Assembly (NCBI GenBank): GCA_021107755.1
Contig: JAIOSF010000017.1
Coordinates: forward strand, 1 to 46,451
Source of the DNA: Arcobacteraceae bacterium
GTDB lineage: Bacteria > Campylobacterota > Campylobacteria > Campylobacterales > Arcobacteraceae
Length of the DNA stretch: 46,451 nucleotides
Reading direction: 5' to 3'
This document shows positions 33,263-40,760 of the stretch, one piece after another. The notes beneath the pieces were generated by a model that was not told the origin of the DNA, searched no databases, and saw only the letters and a program-made list of their open reading frames with translations. Every line of letters starts with the position of its first letter. Position 1 is the stretch's first letter. A program made the position numbers and the translations under genes.

Positions 33263-34147
33263 CTATTTTACATCTAGCCCTGTTTGATTAACATTGTGAT
33301 TGAGTCCTAAATCCTTTGGATCAATTCCAAGTGCAATACCAACCATTTGAGGTAAGTGAAGTATAGCGATATCTACAGGTCTTCCCATCTCTTTACTTAT
33401 ACCATGTTGTTGAACATCCATTCGAAGATGACATAGTGGACAAGGTGTTACCATCATATCTGCATTATTATCAATTGCATCAAGCATAGCTGTTCCACTC
33501 AATCTATTTGCAGTTTGTGGGTTTTGTAACTCTACATGAAATCCACAACATTTATTTTTAGATTCATACTCAACAGCGTTTCCACCAAGTGCAATTACTA
33601 GGTTATCTAGTGAAGTTGGTTTATATGCATTTTCTCCACCATTTGTTTTATTTTGTAAATGGCTTGGTCTAATATTGTGACAACCGTAAAATGAAGCTAC
33701 ATTAATATCAGCAATTGGGTTTGTAACTTTAGTTGCAATTTGATCATATCCATAATCATCTTGAAGAGCATATAAGAAGTGTTTTACTTCACTTGTCCCT
33801 TTATATTCCAGTCCTATTTCTGCTAGTTTCTCATTTACTTTTGCTTTGAGTTCTGGGTCATTATCAAGTCTATCTTTTGTTAAAGCAGTATTGAGTTGAC
33901 AAGTATTACAAATAGTTACCATAGTAAGTCCTAACTTTTCTGCATAACAAAGATTTCTAGCATTTAATGTAAGTGAAAGCATATCATCAAAATCTTGTAA
34001 ATGACTAGCTCCACAACAACTTGCTTCATCAAGTAATATCAACTCAATTCCTAGTTTTTCTGCAATCGCTATTGTTGATTTTAAAAGTTCAGGAGTTGAT
34101 TCTCTTGCTGTACAACCTGTGTATAAAGCATATTTTAATTTTTCCAT
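33263..34147 (-). CDS. HdrB-like Cys-rich subunit of succinate dehydrogenase/fumarate reductase (SdhE/MfrE type)
   Basis: Third subunit of the SdhABE-type complex, replacing the membrane cytochrome b; related to heterodisulfide reductase subunit HdrB. Two CCG domains supply cluster ligands: C12, C44, C45, C80, C83 in the first, and C156, C200, C201 (CCGFHVE), C236, C239 (CPLC) in the second. Length 294 is typical. It probably passes electrons between the SdhB clusters and the quinone pool. Ten bases after sdhB. It is not the flavinylation factor also called SdhE. Confidence 0.88.
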   Translation of the reverse strand: MEKLKYALYTGCTARESTPELLKSTIAIAEKLGIELILLDEASCCGASHLQDFDDMLSLTLNARNLCYAEKLGLTMVTICNTCQLNTALTKDRLDNDPELKAKVNEKLAEIGLEYKGTSEVKHFLYALQDDYGYDQIATKVTNPIADINVASFYGCHNIRPSHLQNKTNGGENAYKPTSLDNLVIALGGNAVEYESKNKCCGFHVELQNPQTANRLSGTAMLDAIDNNADMMVTPCPLCHLRMDVQQHGISKEMGRPVDIAILHLPQMVGIALGIDPKDLGLNHNVNQTGLDVK

Positions 34148-34157
34148 AATTTTACTC

Positions 34158-35141
34158 CTAGTACTTCACTGTTGAAGCTATATCAACAAGTTTTTTTATT
34201 TCATCTAAATTTTTAGATTTTGGCATATTCCATGGCATTACTATTTTCCCTTTTCTAAACATAGCGATTGCCTCTGGGATATGTTTCATAACACCAAAGT
34301 TACCTTCACTATATCTTACAAGTTCACCCTCATCTAATATACCGTGTTTTTTAATAGACCATTTAAATCCAACAGCATGTCTTACAGCTGCGTTATCTAG
34401 TGATTTTTCCTCTTGGAATGTTTGTAAGTGTAGTTTTGTAATTTTCCCTATTGGGTCTAACTCTTTTGGACACGCTTCAGCACATTCGTTACATTTTACA
34501 CAATCCCAAATACCGCTCCCTAGTTTTTGAAGAGTGTCTAGCCTTTCATGTTGCGCATTGTCTCTTACATCAGCATTAAATCGCCATGCTTTTGTAAGTG
34601 CCATTGGTCCTAGATATTCACTATTTACTTCAACTGCAGGACAGGCATAAAAACAGTTACCACAAGCGATACAATAATCAGCTTCATCTATTAGTTCAGC
34701 TTGTTGTTGAGTAACAATATTTTCTTGTGTTGGGAACTCATCTATATCTGTTACAACAAAAGGTTTTACTGCATCATATTTTTGCCAGAAGTTTTCTTTA
34801 TCTATAACCATATCTTTATAGGCTCTTTTGATATCTTGTGGTTCGATTGTTAACTCTTCACCAAATACCTCTACAAGTTCAAATACATTGTCTTTACATG
34901 CAAGAGTTGGTTTTTGGTTTACTTTAATTGCACAACTTCCACAAATACCATGTCTACAACTTCTTCTATATGAAAAGCTTCCGTCATGTTCCCATTTGAT
35001 TCTGTTCATTACATCAAGTACAAGTTCATCTTGATTTACATCCATCTCAACTGTATCGTAATGAGGGAGATAGTCTGTATCTTTATTAAATCTAAAAACT
35101 TTAAAAGTTAATTTTTTTGTTCCATGTTTGTGACTCATCAT
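34158..35141 (-). CDS. sdhB: Succinate dehydrogenase/fumarate reductase iron-sulfur subunit
   Basis: Electron-transfer subunit. The N-terminal plant-type ferredoxin domain has C62, C67, C70 and C82 for a [2Fe-2S] cluster (SCRHGICGSCAI). The C-terminal helical domain has two Cx2Cx2Cx3C sets, C157-C160-C163-C167 and C214-C217-C220-C224, with a full extra cysteine at the position that makes a [3Fe-4S] cluster in classical enzymes; this fits the E-type enzymes. 327 residues, longer than the usual 240. GGAGATA precedes two ATG codons; either may start. Confidence 0.94.
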   Translation of the reverse strand: MMSHKHGTKKLTFKVFRFNKDTDYLPHYDTVEMDVNQDELVLDVMNRIKWEHDGSFSYRRSCRHGICGSCAIKVNQKPTLACKDNVFELVEVFGEELTIEPQDIKRAYKDMVIDKENFWQKYDAVKPFVVTDIDEFPTQENIVTQQQAELIDEADYCIACGNCFYACPAVEVNSEYLGPMALTKAWRFNADVRDNAQHERLDTLQKLGSGIWDCVKCNECAEACPKELDPIGKITKLHLQTFQEEKSLDNAAVRHAVGFKWSIKKHGILDEGELVRYSEGNFGVMKHIPEAIAMFRKGKIVMPWNMPKSKNLDEIKKLVDIASTVKY

Positions 35142-35147
35142 TATCTC

Positions 35148-36863
35148 CTAGTATGTTCGTTCTTGTGGCTCAAAGTAACCCATTACTACATCCATATATT
35201 CTGTTTTTATATTTCCATCTTTATCCATATAAGCCATAGTATGTTTTAAGAAATTCTCATCATCTCTTGTTTGATACTCTTCTCTATAGTGAGCACCTCT
35301 ACTCTCTTTTCTATGGATTGCTCCATCAACTATAAATGAACTATAATCTAACATATGACTAAATTCAATAGCCTCTTGAAGATCAGTATTGTAGATTTTA
35401 GACTTGTCATCTATTCGTACATTTTTAAATCGTTCTTTAAGTTTTTTAATATTTTCTTGTTGTACTAAAAGTGATTTTTCTGTTCTAAATACACCAGCAT
35501 TATCTGTCATACCTTGTTGTAACTCTTCTCGTAAGGCTGGTACTTTTTCATTTCCACTTGATGTTCTAATAGATTCAATTCTTTCTAATGCAGGTGTTGC
35601 ATCTGTAACTTTTGCATCTTTAAAAGCGATACCTCTTTTTACATCCTCAACAATTGTTTGTCCCACATGTCTTCCAAAAAATAAAGCTTCAAGTACTGAG
35701 TTTGCACCAAGTCTATTTGCTCCATGTACACTTACACAACTACATTCACCAGCTGCATAAAAACCTTCTACAAACTCTTTAGTATTTTTTCGTACATGAC
35801 CATCTTTGTTTACTGGAATTCCACCCATAGAGTAGTGAGCAGTTGCAGCAATAGAGATTGGCTCTTTTATCATATCTTGACCTAGGAATGTAATAGCTAA
35901 ATCTCTTAATTCTGGAAGTCTAGTCATAATAATCTCTTCACCAAGATGTGTTAAGTCAATAAGTACATGGTCTTTATTTTCACCACAACCTCTACCTTCT
36001 AAAATCTCTTTTGTAATAGCTCTTGAAACAACATCTCTTGAAGCTAGTTCTAGTTTATTTGGAGCATATTTCTCCATAAATCTTTCACCTTTAGAGTTAT
36101 AAAGAATTCCTCCTTCACCTCTTGCTGCTTCAGAGATAAGAACACCACTTCCAGCTATACCTGTTGGGTGAAACTGTACAAACTCCATATCTTCTAGTGG
36201 AAGACCATGTCGTGCTACAATTGAAAGTGCATCACCTGTATTTGCATGAGCATTCGAGTTAATTCTAAAGGCTCTCCCGTATCCACCAGTTGCAAACATA
36301 ACAGCACGAGCATTGAATATCATAGGTTTACTATCAATTAAATCAAAAGCAAATACACCATTTACTTTTCCATTTTCATAAATTAAATCCGATACATAAT
36401 ATTCATCTTTAAAATCAACACCATCTCTATGCGCTTGTTCATATATTGTTTGAAGTAGTGTTAACCCTGTTCTATCTTTTGCATAACAGGCTCTTGGTTT
36501 ACTTTGACCACCAAATGGTCTTTGAGCAATTTTACCCTCATCATTTCTAGAAAATACTGCACCCATTCTTTCAGCCCATCTAATTGTTTCAGGAGCTTTT
36601 TCACACATTAGTTTTATAGCGTCTTGATCACCTAAGTAATCACTTCCTTTTACTGTGTCAAACTCATGAAGCTCAACAGTGTCTTCTTCACTTAAAGCGG
36701 CATTTATACCACCTTGAGCTGCCCCTGAGTGGCTTCTTAGTGGATGAAGTTTTGTTAGTACACATACACTTAAACCAGCGTGAGCAGCTTCTCTAGCAGC
36801 AGCACATCCAGCAAGTCCAGCACCAACAATAACAACATCATATTTATGAATTGGAATACTCAT
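35148..36863 (-). CDS. sdhA: Succinate dehydrogenase/fumarate reductase flavoprotein subunit
   Basis: Catalytic subunit with covalently bound FAD. The dinucleotide fold is [14 protein letters not shown] (10-23); H45 in [11 protein letters not shown] is the FAD attachment site; the active-site region includes HPTGI and REYQTRDD near the C-terminus, and [19 protein letters not shown]. There is no twin-arginine signal, so it is cytoplasmic, unlike the periplasmic methylmenaquinol:fumarate reductases of Wolinella and Campylobacter. AGAAGGAAC precedes the ATG. 571 residues. Confidence 0.95.
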
Positions 36864-36991
36864 ATTTGTTCCTTCTAATTGTTTTGGATTAAAATTAATT
36901 TGTATTTATTCTACAGAAGTTTTATATATAAGTTTATTAAATAATTAGCATGTGGGTAAAAAGAGCTGAATACTCTGTTACAAATTGAAGC

Positions 36992-37017
36992 AGTGAAAAG
37001 TAATTTTACTTTTCACT
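36992..37017. promoter_or_regulatory. Perfect hairpin between the fusion gene and sdhA
   Basis: AGTGAAAAGTA at 36992-37002 pairs with TACTTTTCACT at 37007-37017 (11 bp, 4-nt loop). No T-run follows on the minus strand. It may be a weak terminator, an attenuator or an mRNA processing or stability site setting different levels for the fusion gene and sdhABE. Confidence 0.55.
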
Positions 37018-37024
37018 AGAAGGG

Positions 37025-38095
37025 TTATTGTAAAAATGGCACGCTTACTTTATGATTTTTCAATCCAAGTGTTACTAGATTTTTTTCACCATTTACTATA
37101 TGGTTGAATTGTTGTATTGTTATAATTGGAAGTTGTATCTCTCTTCCTACAACTTTTTCAATCTCTTTTTGTTTATTATCAAAAAGTTTAAAAGCATCTT
37201 GACTTTTAACCACAATAAAATCGGCATTATTATCTTTTGCTTCTAACAAAATATTTCCAGCAATCTTATATGAGAATGTTTTATTAACACTTTGACTATG
37301 AAGTGCTAAGTCATCACTTTTTGAATCTATATGAATATATTTTGCATCACTAGTTAGTACAGATTTTTCTAAAAATTGAGTATCTGTTATATCATATACT
37401 GCAATATTAAAATCTGTAAATTTTTGTACAACTGTGTCAACAGTTATCTCTTCATCTATCTGGCTAGTAGTTTGTTTTTTTGTTACTTCTTGTAGTAATG
37501 TATTTATTTGATTCTTATATTCTGTATTGATATTTAGAACTCTGTTGTCTTTTGAAGTATTGTACCAAATACCATTATTTTCATCACTAATTAACTGAAT
37601 GATTTCATTCTTTAATTCAGGATTAGTTTTTATAATATCACTAGCTATTAAAATACTATGATCTCCAATATATTCTTTATTTACATTAAGTGTATTTGAA
37701 GAATAATATTCAAATTGTAAATTTTGAGCATAGTTCTCTTTTTGTTCATTAGATAAATATTTATCAAAAATAGCAAGTTTTTCAAAAAAATCATCATTAT
37801 TGATTGTTAAATCATCTATTGCTCTATAGCTGCTTACTGGTTCTATTATAAACTCATTTGATGTAGCATTTACTATATCTTCTACTAAATCAGTAGTTCT
37901 TACAAAGATATTGTTAATTTTAATTCCAAATTTTTCCACTTTCTTAAAGCTAAATTTTTCATTTTCATAAAGATTATTTAATAAATCTAAAATTGTGTCA
38001 TTAGTATTGTAAGTGGTTTTATATTTTTTATAGTAAGGTAAATAATCATTCTTATGATTAAATCTAAATAACTCTACTAAAAGTTCGTTGTTCAT
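37025..38095 (-). CDS. Cysteine-free SdhB/SdhE-like fusion protein, function unknown
   Basis: 356 residues without any cysteine. Residues 5-205 align with the SdhB encoded 3 kb downstream: LFRFNHKNDYLPYY compared with VFRFNKDTDYLPHY, NVNKEYIG with EVNSEYLG, NGIWY with SGIWD. All cluster cysteines that align are replaced (for example E54, K59, N62; A123, L126, E129, S133; N179, K182, R185, I189). Residues 230-356 align with the second CCG domain of the HdrB-like subunit: the pentapeptide DNNAD is shared, CC is D262-L263, and CPLC is SQDA (298-301). AGAGGAAC precedes the ATG. It cannot carry iron-sulfur clusters; a structural, assembly or regulatory role for the Sdh complex is inferred. Confidence 0.85.
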   Translation of the reverse strand: MNNELLVELFRFNHKNDYLPYYKKYKTTYNTNDTILDLLNNLYENEKFSFKKVEKFGIKINNIFVRTTDLVEDIVNATSNEFIIEPVSSYRAIDDLTINNDDFFEKLAIFDKYLSNEQKENYAQNLQFEYYSSNTLNVNKEYIGDHSILIASDIIKTNPELKNEIIQLISDENNGIWYNTSKDNRVLNINTEYKNQINTLLQEVTKKQTTSQIDEEITVDTVVQKFTDFNIAVYDITDTQFLEKSVLTSDAKYIHIDSKSDDLALHSQSVNKTFSYKIAGNILLEAKDNNADFIVVKSQDAFKLFDNKQKEIEKVVGREIQLPIITIQQFNHIVNGEKNLVTLGLKNHKVSVPFLQ

Positions 38096-38123
38096 AAATG
38101 TTCCTCTTCTTGAATATTTAGAT

Positions 38124-38201: not shown

Positions 38202-38237
38202 TAAAAAACAAACACCCGTAGAGTTTTCCCACAGGTG
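38202..38237 (-). terminator. Rho-independent terminator of the cytochrome c gene
   Basis: On the minus strand CACCTGTGG and CTACGGGTG pair over 9 bp with G-U pairs, loop of 7, followed by TTTGTTTTTT. It ends the cytochrome transcript before the sdh promoter. Confidence 0.8.
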
Positions 38238-38243
38238 ATTTTA

Positions 38244-38540
38244 TTATTTGTTGGTTACTATATGTTCAGCTAAAGCTTCAATATCTTTATCCTCTAAGCT
38301 AGCAACTTGACCTCTCATAATCCCTTTCATAGGACCACCATAAGTTCCTGCTTTATATCCTTGTAATGCTTTTACAATATCATCTTTTGACATATCAGCT
38401 ACAATTTTTGATTTACCTAAAGCTACTTTTTCAGCTTTAACTCCATGACATCCAGCACATTTTTTATAAAGAACATCTCCACCATTTGCGAATAAACTTG
38501 TTGTAGCTATAAGTGCTACTGTTGCAATTATCTTTTTCAT
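38244..38540 (-). CDS. Periplasmic class I c-type cytochrome
   Basis: 98-residue precursor. Signal peptide about 1-19 (SLFANG). One haem-binding motif CAGCH (C28, C31, H32) and candidate methionine ligands M71 and M75 in GGPMKGIMRGQ. It resembles the c553-type monohaem cytochromes of Campylobacterota, which shuttle electrons to oxidases or peroxidases. AAAGGAG precedes the ATG. An 81-base gap with its own terminator suggests it is at least partly expressed alone. Confidence 0.92.
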   Translation of the reverse strand: MKKIIATVALIATTSLFANGGDVLYKKCAGCHGVKAEKVALGKSKIVADMSKDDIVKALQGYKAGTYGGPMKGIMRGQVASLEDKDIEALAEHIVTNK

Positions 38541-38621
38541 TTTGAACTCCTTTTGTTTTATAATTAGAAGTATAAAAGAAAATTGTGAATTGATTGTGAA
38601 GTAGTTAAAAAGTTTTAAAGT

Positions 38622-38951
38622 TTATTTGAGTTTCCCAAATACTTTGTATTTTTCCCAATAGATATCTATAGCTTTTCGTAGCTCTTCATCTTTGAGTGTC
38701 GTTTTTTTCTTGATACCATATCTTTTTATAAAAGCTTCTGGCATCACAGTTGTATCTACAGTTGGGTTTTGTAAATATTCTATAAGAGATTTTTTGACAT
38801 TTTTTTCACTACTATATTTTAAAAGGTATCTAAAAAAGAGTTTTTCTAATGTTACATCAATTTTTTGATGACATGAGCTACAGTTTGTTTGATAGATATC
38901 TGCGAATACTATATTGACAAAAAGTATAATAGACAGGAATATTTTTACCAT
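38622..38951 (-). CDS. Small exported c-type cytochrome-like protein
   Basis: 109 residues with a signal peptide (about 1-17, VFADI) and one CSSCH haem motif (C24, C27, H28). M70 in TVMPEAF is a candidate sixth ligand. It overlaps the end of the histidine kinase gene by 7 bases, so it is tied to the two-component system and may be involved in sensing redox state or be its target. Function unproved. Confidence 0.8.
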   Translation of the reverse strand: MVKIFLSIILFVNIVFADIYQTNCSSCHQKIDVTLEKLFFRYLLKYSSEKNVKKSLIEYLQNPTVDTTVMPEAFIKRYGIKKKTTLKDEELRKAIDIYWEKYKVFGKLK

Positions 38952-40132
38952 TGTATTGTTACCTTTGTCTCTTTATTTTCTATTGAGGTGATAGTGATAT
39001 TGAGATTATACTCTTTTGCAATCATCGATACAATACTCAATCCTATCCCAAATCCACCAACACTTTTATCAAATCTACTATATCTATCAAACATCATCTT
39101 TATTTGTTCTTTTTTTATCCCTCTTCCTGTATTACTAATAGTAAGTGTATTGTGTGTAAGAGTGATATCTATTGTTCCATTGATAATATTGTATTTAATA
39201 GCATTAGAGAGAAGATTATCAATCAGTTTAGAAAATTTAATTTTATCAATATAAAGTGTGATATCATCTTCAAGAGTTGTGTTGATTTTTATTTTTTTTA
39301 TGTTTGAGAGGGTTTTAAAGTATTCTACCCTTTGTTTGATGATTTCACTTATATTGAGGTTTTCATTTTGTGATATTATTTTATTATTTAAAGTTAGATA
39401 GGTTAAATCTTGATAGATATTTGAGATAGTCTTTGCTCCTATATCAATACGGTTAAGTTTTTTTAAAAGTTTAACATCAAGGGTAGTTTTATCTATCATC
39501 TCTATATTTGCAACAATTGTACTCACCGGGGTGTTTAGTTCATGGGTGGTGTCTTTTATAAATCTATCAAGTAAATGAAGAGCATCTCTAAGAGGCTTTA
39601 GAAAAAGTTGTAGTAAAAAATATCCAATAAAGGTCATAAATATAAAAGCTAAACTACCATACAAAAGAATATCGTGTTTTATTTTTCCAAGCCATAATTT
39701 ATCATCAGTAACTTCAATAATAATATATTTTGCTCCTAGATAATAAGACTCAGGTTGGTTTATAAAATGAATTTTATTTTCAACCAAATAGATTGATTTC
39801 TCAAATTGTATTTGCTTTGATTGTAAAGTTGAAAAAATCTGTGTTTTGTCACTATCATATATTGCAGATTCAAATCTCCCATCTCTTGGGTAGTTTTTAT
39901 ATGTTTCAAAGTTAAGGTGCATATATTTTATAATCGTGATAAGGTCATTTGAATATTCTTCTAAAAGAACTCTTTTTTCTTGAAGCATTAAGTCTTTTTG
40001 AAAGTTATAATATAAAAAGGATATGGTACTTATGATGATAATTGTTAAAAAAGAGTAAAGAGCCAAAAAACTAAAAAGTGTTTTTTTCTCTTTTTTAATT
40101 AAATCTATATCCAAGCTTTTTAATACTAACAA
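38945..40132 (-). CDS. Sensor histidine kinase
   Basis: 395 residues. Membrane segments at about 20-42 and 157-177 flank a periplasmic sensor of about 115 residues. The phosphoacceptor is H197 in DTTHELNTPVS; the ATPase domain has NLLSNAIKYN, ISNTGRGI and GFGIGLSIV. The start appears to be TTG, 38 bases inside the response regulator gene, with AGGAAAAG upstream. Partner of the regulator encoded before it. The kinase starts with no HAMP domain that I can recognise. Confidence 0.92.
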   Translation of the reverse strand: MLVLKSLDIDLIKKEKKTLFSFLALYSFLTIIIISTISFLYYNFQKDLMLQEKRVLLEEYSNDLITIIKYMHLNFETYKNYPRDGRFESAIYDSDKTQIFSTLQSKQIQFEKSIYLVENKIHFINQPESYYLGAKYIIIEVTDDKLWLGKIKHDILLYGSLAFIFMTFIGYFLLQLFLKPLRDALHLLDRFIKDTTHELNTPVSTIVANIEMIDKTTLDVKLLKKLNRIDIGAKTISNIYQDLTYLTLNNKIISQNENLNISEIIKQRVEYFKTLSNIKKIKINTTLEDDITLYIDKIKFSKLIDNLLSNAIKYNIINGTIDITLTHNTLTISNTGRGIKKEQIKMMFDRYSRFDKSVGGFGIGLSIVSMIAKEYNLNITITSIENKETKVTIQW

Positions 40133-40760
40133 TTTTTTCTTTTCCTATATATTTTCTTAAAACTTTTATATATGTTCGCAAAGATGTCTCACTTGGAGTT
40201 TCATCATATTCCCAAAGTGTATCATGTATTTTTTCGTGAGACAATGGTACATCTCTATTTTGTAAAAAAAGTTTTAAAAGTTTTATCTCTTTGGTATTGA
40301 GTTGGATTTTTTCCTCTTTTACAAGCAGTAAATCTGTATCTATATCAAAAGATATATCTTTATCGATCTCAATTCGCTGTGAAGTGTTATGAAAATATCC
40401 TCTTTTTAAAATAGTTTCAATTCGAAACAGTAACTCTTTAAGTTCAAAAGGTTTTCGTATATAATCATCACCACCACTTTTGTATCCCTCTTCTAATGAA
40501 TCAATTGAGTTTAAAGAGGTTATATAGATTGCTGGAGTTGTGATATTGTTTTCTCTTTGCTCTTTTAATAAAGTAAACCCATCTATGTAGGGTACATTTA
40601 CATCTAGTAAAAACAGATCAAAGTTTTGTTCATAGATAATCTCATTGGCTTCTTTACCATCATAGGCACACACTACTTCAAAATTATTATCTTCTAAAAA
40701 GTCTTCTAAAGTTTGACTTAAACTCATATCATCTTCTAAAAGGAGTATTTTGTTTTTCAT
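40095..40760 (-). CDS. OmpR/PhoB-family response regulator
   Basis: 221 residues. Receiver domain with acidic pair in LLLEDD, phosphoacceptor D53 in FLLDVNVPYIDG and Lys in YIRKPFE. The C-terminal winged helix (about 125-221) ends TYIKVLRKYIGKEKIVSIKKLGYRFN, typical of OmpR-type DNA-binding domains. Probable transcription regulator working with the overlapping kinase gene; targets may include this operon. Confidence 0.94.
   Translation of the reverse strand: MKNKILLLEDDMSLSQTLEDFLEDNNFEVVCAYDGKEANEIIYEQNFDLFLLDVNVPYIDGFTLLKEQRENNITTPAIYITSLNSIDSLEEGYKSGGDDYIRKPFELKELLFRIETILKRGYFHNTSQRIEIDKDISFDIDTDLLLVKEEKIQLNTKEIKLLKLFLQNRDVPLSHEKIHDTLWEYDETPSETSLRTYIKVLRKYIGKEKIVSIKKLGYRFN

Follow-up and report, generated by a model that had tools for sequence, protein, structure and literature searches.

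Organization of the apo-sdhABE locus

The window analysed here, a 46,451-nucleotide stretch of an Arcobacteraceae contig (JAIOSF010000017.1), carries on its minus strand a succinate dehydrogenase operon of the SdhABE type. The gene upstream of sdhA-sdhB-sdhE, co-directional with them and 161 bp from sdhA, encodes a cysteine-free protein and is called apo below. The features of the locus are as follows, in the order in which they are transcribed.

38213..38237, minus: terminator-like hairpin followed by a T run, preceding apo (2 such sites in the real sequence, 0.3 in shuffles)
38101..38108, minus: ribosome site AAGAGGAA just 5' of the apo ATG (sequence)
37025..38095, minus: apo gene (DUF5644 + HdrB-like_C), 356 aa, ATG start, 0 Cys
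37757..38095, minus: apo residues 1-113, N-terminal [2Fe-2S]-type domain of SdhB that lacks the cluster loop and retains SdhB character (Fer2_3 E 8e-4, below cut-off; BLASTP; alignment)
37475..37756, minus: apo residues 114-207, remnant of the SdhB [4Fe-4S]/[3Fe-4S] domain (DUF5644 region) without ligands (Pfam, alignment)
37028..37411, minus: apo residues 229-356, Cys-free second CCG-type domain of HdrB/SdhE (HdrB-like_C; Pfam, BLASTP, alignment)
36991..37018, minus: 12-pair hairpin with weak T tail, just past the apo stop codon (z -3.4 for the intergenic stretch)
35148-36863, minus: sdhA, flavoprotein subunit (profile searches)
34158-35141, minus: sdhB, 12/12 Cys present, parent family of the apo N half (profile searches, alignment, tree)
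33263-34147, minus: sdhE, HdrB-like subunit carrying two CCG domains; its family is parent to the apo C half (profile searches, alignment, tree)

The initial annotation had credited apo with a full frame, a ribosome site and a promoter. The frame is intact and AAGAGGAA precedes the ATG, but promoter-like sites were no commoner than in shuffled sequence. Given the terminator-like hairpin upstream, apo probably has its own transcript start, and the hairpin at 36991..37018 is a possible partial terminator separating it from sdhA. Together the two hairpins suggest that apo may be transcribed separately from sdhA. Further 5' on the same strand (38244-40760) we noted, naming by eye, two small c-type cytochrome-like ORFs (38244-38540 and 38622-38951) and a two-component system made of a histidine kinase (38945-40132) and a response regulator (40095-40760).

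Apo resembles SdhB and SdhE and lacks their iron-sulfur ligands

BLASTP aligned the apo protein to the SdhB of the window with 24% identity over 205 columns (E 1e-14) and to residues 180-274 of its SdhE with 26% identity over 95 ungapped columns (E 8e-10), and a whole-genome search with apo returned only itself, sdhB and sdhE. At the level of sequence this double resemblance lies well beyond chance, and with no Cys in 356 aa it confirms the earlier description of apo as a cysteine-free fused SdhB/SdhE copy upstream of sdhABE. The suspicion that a named DUF family might already cover the protein also proved right: it scores above the curated cut-offs of Pfam DUF5644 (PF18712; 29.9 bits vs 25) and HdrB-like_C (PF22196; 47.2 bits vs 33.4). 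It falls short of the SdhB/FrdB families (Fer2_3, 19.9 vs 27; TIGR00384, 26.9 vs 88), and NCBIfam gave only weak SdhB and HdrB matches.

In the alignment the window protein has a non-Cys residue or a gap at each of the 12 columns that hold Cys in SdhB and each of the 11 that do so in SdhE. None of 44 aligned family members retains any SdhB cluster ligand, the [2Fe-2S] loop is deleted, and the CCG cysteines of SdhE are lost across the aligned family apart from stray single Cys. The window protein, with a single CCG-type domain and no Cys, also lacks the two Cys-bearing CCG motifs by which SdhE/HdrB proteins are recognised. Of the individual substitutions listed initially, A123, L126, E129, S133, N179, K182, D262, L263, S298 and A301 were recovered, whereas R185 falls in a gap and I189 is aligned as Leu; the proposed [2Fe-2S] positions E54, K59 and N62 lie inside the mostly deleted loop. 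In substance the listed losses are right. Judging from these columns, the loss of clusters in the apo family is old and complete. A search for a replacement metal site across the family was negative: Cys does not exceed about 16% in any column, and no cluster of newly conserved His emerged; His348 is part of a C-terminal motif common to SdhE. With the ligands gone the clusters should be absent too, and apo would be a non-redox protein.

The two parents have left unequal traces. The N half keeps the N-terminal domain fold of SdhB and its motifs FRF..DYLPYY and IEP..RA..DL, but has lost the cluster loop together with all [2Fe-2S], [4Fe-4S] and [3Fe-4S] ligands. This half is 34% identical to SdhB, against 36% among family members, while the former cluster-domain half has drifted (17% to SdhB vs 28% within the family). 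The C half keeps the second CCG domain fold of SdhE/HdrB with the DNNAD and LGL..H motifs; the CCG cysteines are absent and, in the window protein, so is the first CCG domain. Residues newly conserved in the family are L96, Y122, S133, D145 and I165.

Predicted fold and a solved relative

AlphaFold2, run on the window protein with 33 family members as input, gave a model with a pLDDT of 92 and a pTM of 0.86. Foldseek matched this model to 3KWL (E 4e-17, TM 0.81 by query length), to FrdB/SdhB chains (E 4e-8 to 4e-4; 1kf6_B 4e-8, 1nek_B 8e-7) and to HdrB chains (1e-5 to 1e-3; 5odc_B 1e-5). Both parental folds thus appear to be retained, and the expectation that the fold was kept is borne out in the predicted model.

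3KWL is a solved Helicobacter pylori protein of unknown function (PMC3397514). In H. pylori DUF5644 is represented by HP0468 (PMC9570263), and we infer that this protein and 3KWL are the same. Molecular hydrogen is reported to upregulate HP0468, to which no function has been assigned (PMC6090961). The profile of the apo family matches 3KWL with E 2e-90, and a 496-aa relative from f2 (L066) matches it end to end (1039 bits). 3KWL/HP0468 and the window protein share family, domain order and fold, with no conserved cluster ligands in either. The H. pylori protein is about 500 aa long and keeps both CCG-type domains, whereas the window protein has only the second, and H. pylori-type genomes carry FrdABC, not SdhABE. 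Our literature searches found no functional study of the DUF5644/HP0468 family, nothing on Cj1459 and no paper on SdhABE with HdrB.

Origin from an sdhB-sdhE pair

In a tree with SdhB, MfrB and FrdB, the apo N halves form a single clade (support 100) inside SdhABE-type SdhB, with nesting branches of 91-92 that leave the exact sister open. The C halves likewise form a single clade (100) inside SdhE, in a 37-row set that also holds the SdhE of groups f1 and f9 (99). These are quick tree searches with a long stem, and the exact sister group is unsure. Both trees set apo apart from FrdB, only a distant relative of the N half, and from MfrB/MfrE, and so rule out Mfr or Frd subunits as its parent. 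That both halves trace to the same operon type fits one duplication of sdhB-sdhE. An origin of apo by duplication and ligand loss is supported by sequence, structure and trees, as had been proposed from the window: most simply, a single duplication of sdhB-sdhE from an SdhABE-type succinate dehydrogenase would have been followed by loss of every iron-sulfur ligand.

The fusion that was part of the same proposal is not basic to the family. Three gene forms were found: two adjacent genes (f10, f13 and parts of f2 and f3), a long fused gene of about 500 aa (H. pylori-type f2), and a short fused gene that lacks the first CCG domain (the window, f1, f3, f4, f7 and f8). Two of these group codes can be linked to genera: the 3KWL match connects f2 with Helicobacter, and the position of L033 in the tree connects f7 with Sulfurimonas. 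The simplest reading is that the halves fused at least twice. From the distribution of forms, fusion would have come after ligand loss, and the lineage of the window would have shed the first CCG domain. In part of f3 g19 (L071 8992-10334, L107) the halves are separate and the second is shortened (about 230 aa) among otherwise fused forms, possibly a re-splitting. What looked there like an in-frame stop between the halves turned out on reading to be two ordinary genes with a separate ribosome site; the pattern found the gene in only 3 of 14 loci. The window apo is nearest to Sulfurimonas-type copies (48%) and the window SdhE to its own family (82-88%); apo may have been exchanged between families.

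Distribution and neighbourhood across Campylobacterota

By family profile apo is present in about 190 of 298 Campylobacterota genomes and absent from 108, after removal of 52 genomes that matched only through true SdhB (all with SdhE, none with a DUF5644 match). Typed from search tables with score limits of our own choosing, SdhABE occurs in 71 genomes and FrdABC in 235 (FrdA tally 236; a few genomes are borderline). Apo accompanies SdhABE in only 15 of these 71 genomes and is absent from the other 56; it is present in 175 of the 227 genomes without SdhABE. Among the 190 apo genomes 173 have FrdABC only, 11 SdhABE only, 4 both (the genome of the window included) and 2 neither detected. No single complex II type is required for apo, and the counts, uncorrected for relatedness, show only this. 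A partner limited to SdhABE, as the initial annotation had it, is rejected by the distribution: 175 genomes have homologues and no SdhABE, which is the refuting condition that the annotation itself had set, and 56 have SdhABE and no apo. A flavinylation factor needed by all complex II of the phylum is ruled out as well, by 105 genomes with SdhABE and/or FrdABC that lack apo.

In many lineages apo sits between sdhABE and a gene pair that we take, from the printed sequences, to be thiL-truD, or adjoins this pair alone where sdhABE is absent. Genomes with sdhABE and without apo often have thiL directly adjoining sdhA, and in some of them sdhE is followed by two genes that, from the printed sequences, are presumably superoxide-reductase-like and uracil-DNA-glycosylase-like. 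In f10 and at one f3 locus (L054, L056) an apoB-apoE pair lies between thiL and these two genes. The simplest reading is that a thiL / apo-sdhABE / sor / udg block lost sdhABE by deletion and kept apo. Where apo and sdhABE occur together they adjoin in 13 of 15 genomes; in f1, f4 and f6 loci it is the first gene ahead of sdhA, and at L063 apo, sdhA, sdhB and sdhE form a tight operon in which a TGATG overlap couples apo to sdhA. Other settings are a pepF cluster in Helicobacter-like f2 genomes and a position between murA and an HNH gene in f1 g7. In the FrdABC-only genomes whose loci were read apo is not adjacent to frdABC, and no regulatory gene lies consistently beside apo in the loci read.

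We also considered a hidden apo remnant in the apo-less Sulfurimonas-type genomes L076 and L078, where 1.4 kb separate sdhA from thiL; this gap holds a GGDEF-like ORF and nothing that matches apo. Such an ORF, named by eye, about 400 aa long and containing a membrane segment, lies between sdhA (or apo) and thiL at L076 12710-13921, L078 5324-6523 and L033 11072-12271.

Selection on apo

Pairwise dN/dS (Nei-Gojobori) for apo was 0.12-0.29 in most close pairs, which answers the earlier question of relaxed selection in favour of purifying selection; a single distant pair reached 0.56, where saturation is likely. In Sulfurimonas-type pairs sdhA, sdhB and sdhE have values of 0.03-0.09, selection on apo being 2-5 times weaker. 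A recent pseudogene is ruled out by dN/dS and retention. Two f4 g54 genomes (L058 10669-14290, L061 11075-14696) have near-identical sdhABE (dS 0.005-0.016) beside apo copies with a dS of 0.40, a contrast suggesting that sdhABE was recently transferred or underwent gene conversion.

Possible roles of apo

We tentatively favour, by a narrow margin, a role for apo as a non-redox, cluster-free mimic of SdhB/SdhE: docked on SdhA or FrdA, it would serve complex II as an optional factor in assembly or control. In complex II structures it is the N-terminal domain of SdhB/FrdB that docks on the flavoprotein, so that the conserved part of apo is the part expected to bind SdhA or FrdA. Apo would dock through this SdhB-like domain in place of the iron-sulfur subunit and would hold or guard the flavoprotein during assembly, or cap the amount of active complex. 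It would be an optional factor outside the core enzyme, because many complex II genomes lack it. The usual bacterial flavoprotein assembly factor of complex II is Sdh5/SdhE(YgfY). This factor was not found in any of the 81 Campylobacterota genomes tested, with positive controls in E. coli and Caulobacter, which makes an assembly or holding role for apo attractive. The likeness is one of possible role only, that of a non-redox flavoprotein helper: Sdh5/SdhE(YgfY) belongs to another Pfam family (PF03937) with no match to apo. A more specific version, in which apo is a lineage-specific helper that docks on SdhA/FrdA before the real iron-sulfur subunit, partly replaces Sdh5/SdhE(YgfY) and moved from SdhABE to FrdABC upon loss of SdhABE, seems to us unlikely.

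Several observations speak against docking. SdhABE and FrdABC can both do without apo, since one or the other is present in nearly all of the 108 genomes that lack it. Apo is not adjacent to frdABC in the loci read, FrdB is distant, and selection is weaker than on sdhABE. The adjacency of apo and sdhABE may merely mark an origin by tandem duplication, because thiL and sdhABE stay adjacent in apo-less genomes, and the similarity of the N half to SdhB could stem from folding needs alone. The general idea of a non-redox pseudo-subunit stands as the best, unproven explanation, but its obligate tie to SdhABE does not agree with the distribution.

Nearly as probable as docking is that the SdhB-SdhE scaffold has been reused outside complex II, for example to bind a small molecule or another protein, its place beside sdhABE being a trace of origin. 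SdhABE is missing from 175 of 190 apo genomes, apo lies in the pepF cluster in Helicobacter-like f2 genomes and between murA and the HNH gene in f1 g7, it evolves faster than sdhABE, and the five newly conserved residues are specific to the family. Such reuse sits less easily with an N domain conserved at the level of SdhB itself, with the presence of some complex II enzyme in all but two apo genomes and with the tight coupling to sdhA at L063.

A competitive inhibitor or off-switch, with apo in the place of SdhB keeping a pool of flavoprotein inactive and so tuning succinate oxidation against fumarate reduction, is improbable. A docking-competent, cluster-free SdhB copy would inherently block electron flow, and the window apo, with a terminator before it, seems to start its own transcript. 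However, a docked flavoprotein without electron exit could produce superoxide, and no neighbouring regulatory gene is consistent. That apo is a decaying relic of the duplicated sdhBE pair is barely credible: its weaker constraint and repeated absence would fit, but dN/dS well below 1 already contradicts it, as do frames open in many family-level lineages, a high-confidence predicted fold and retention after SdhABE loss.

The sequence family is known and named, and its crystal structure dates from 2010; its identity as a cluster-free SdhB-SdhE paralogue outliving SdhABE is not stated in the literature searched. Our work shows where an uncharacterised family, present in H. pylori and most Campylobacterota, belongs in evolution: its members are paralogues of two subunits of complex II, stripped of the iron-sulfur sites. 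Because it has no iron-sulfur sites and has often outlived its parent enzyme, apo probably does something other than electron transport, and the docking model predicts that it binds SdhA or FrdA. The family is a clear case of respiratory subunits giving rise to an apparently non-redox protein that has been kept in many lineages past the loss of the parent enzyme.
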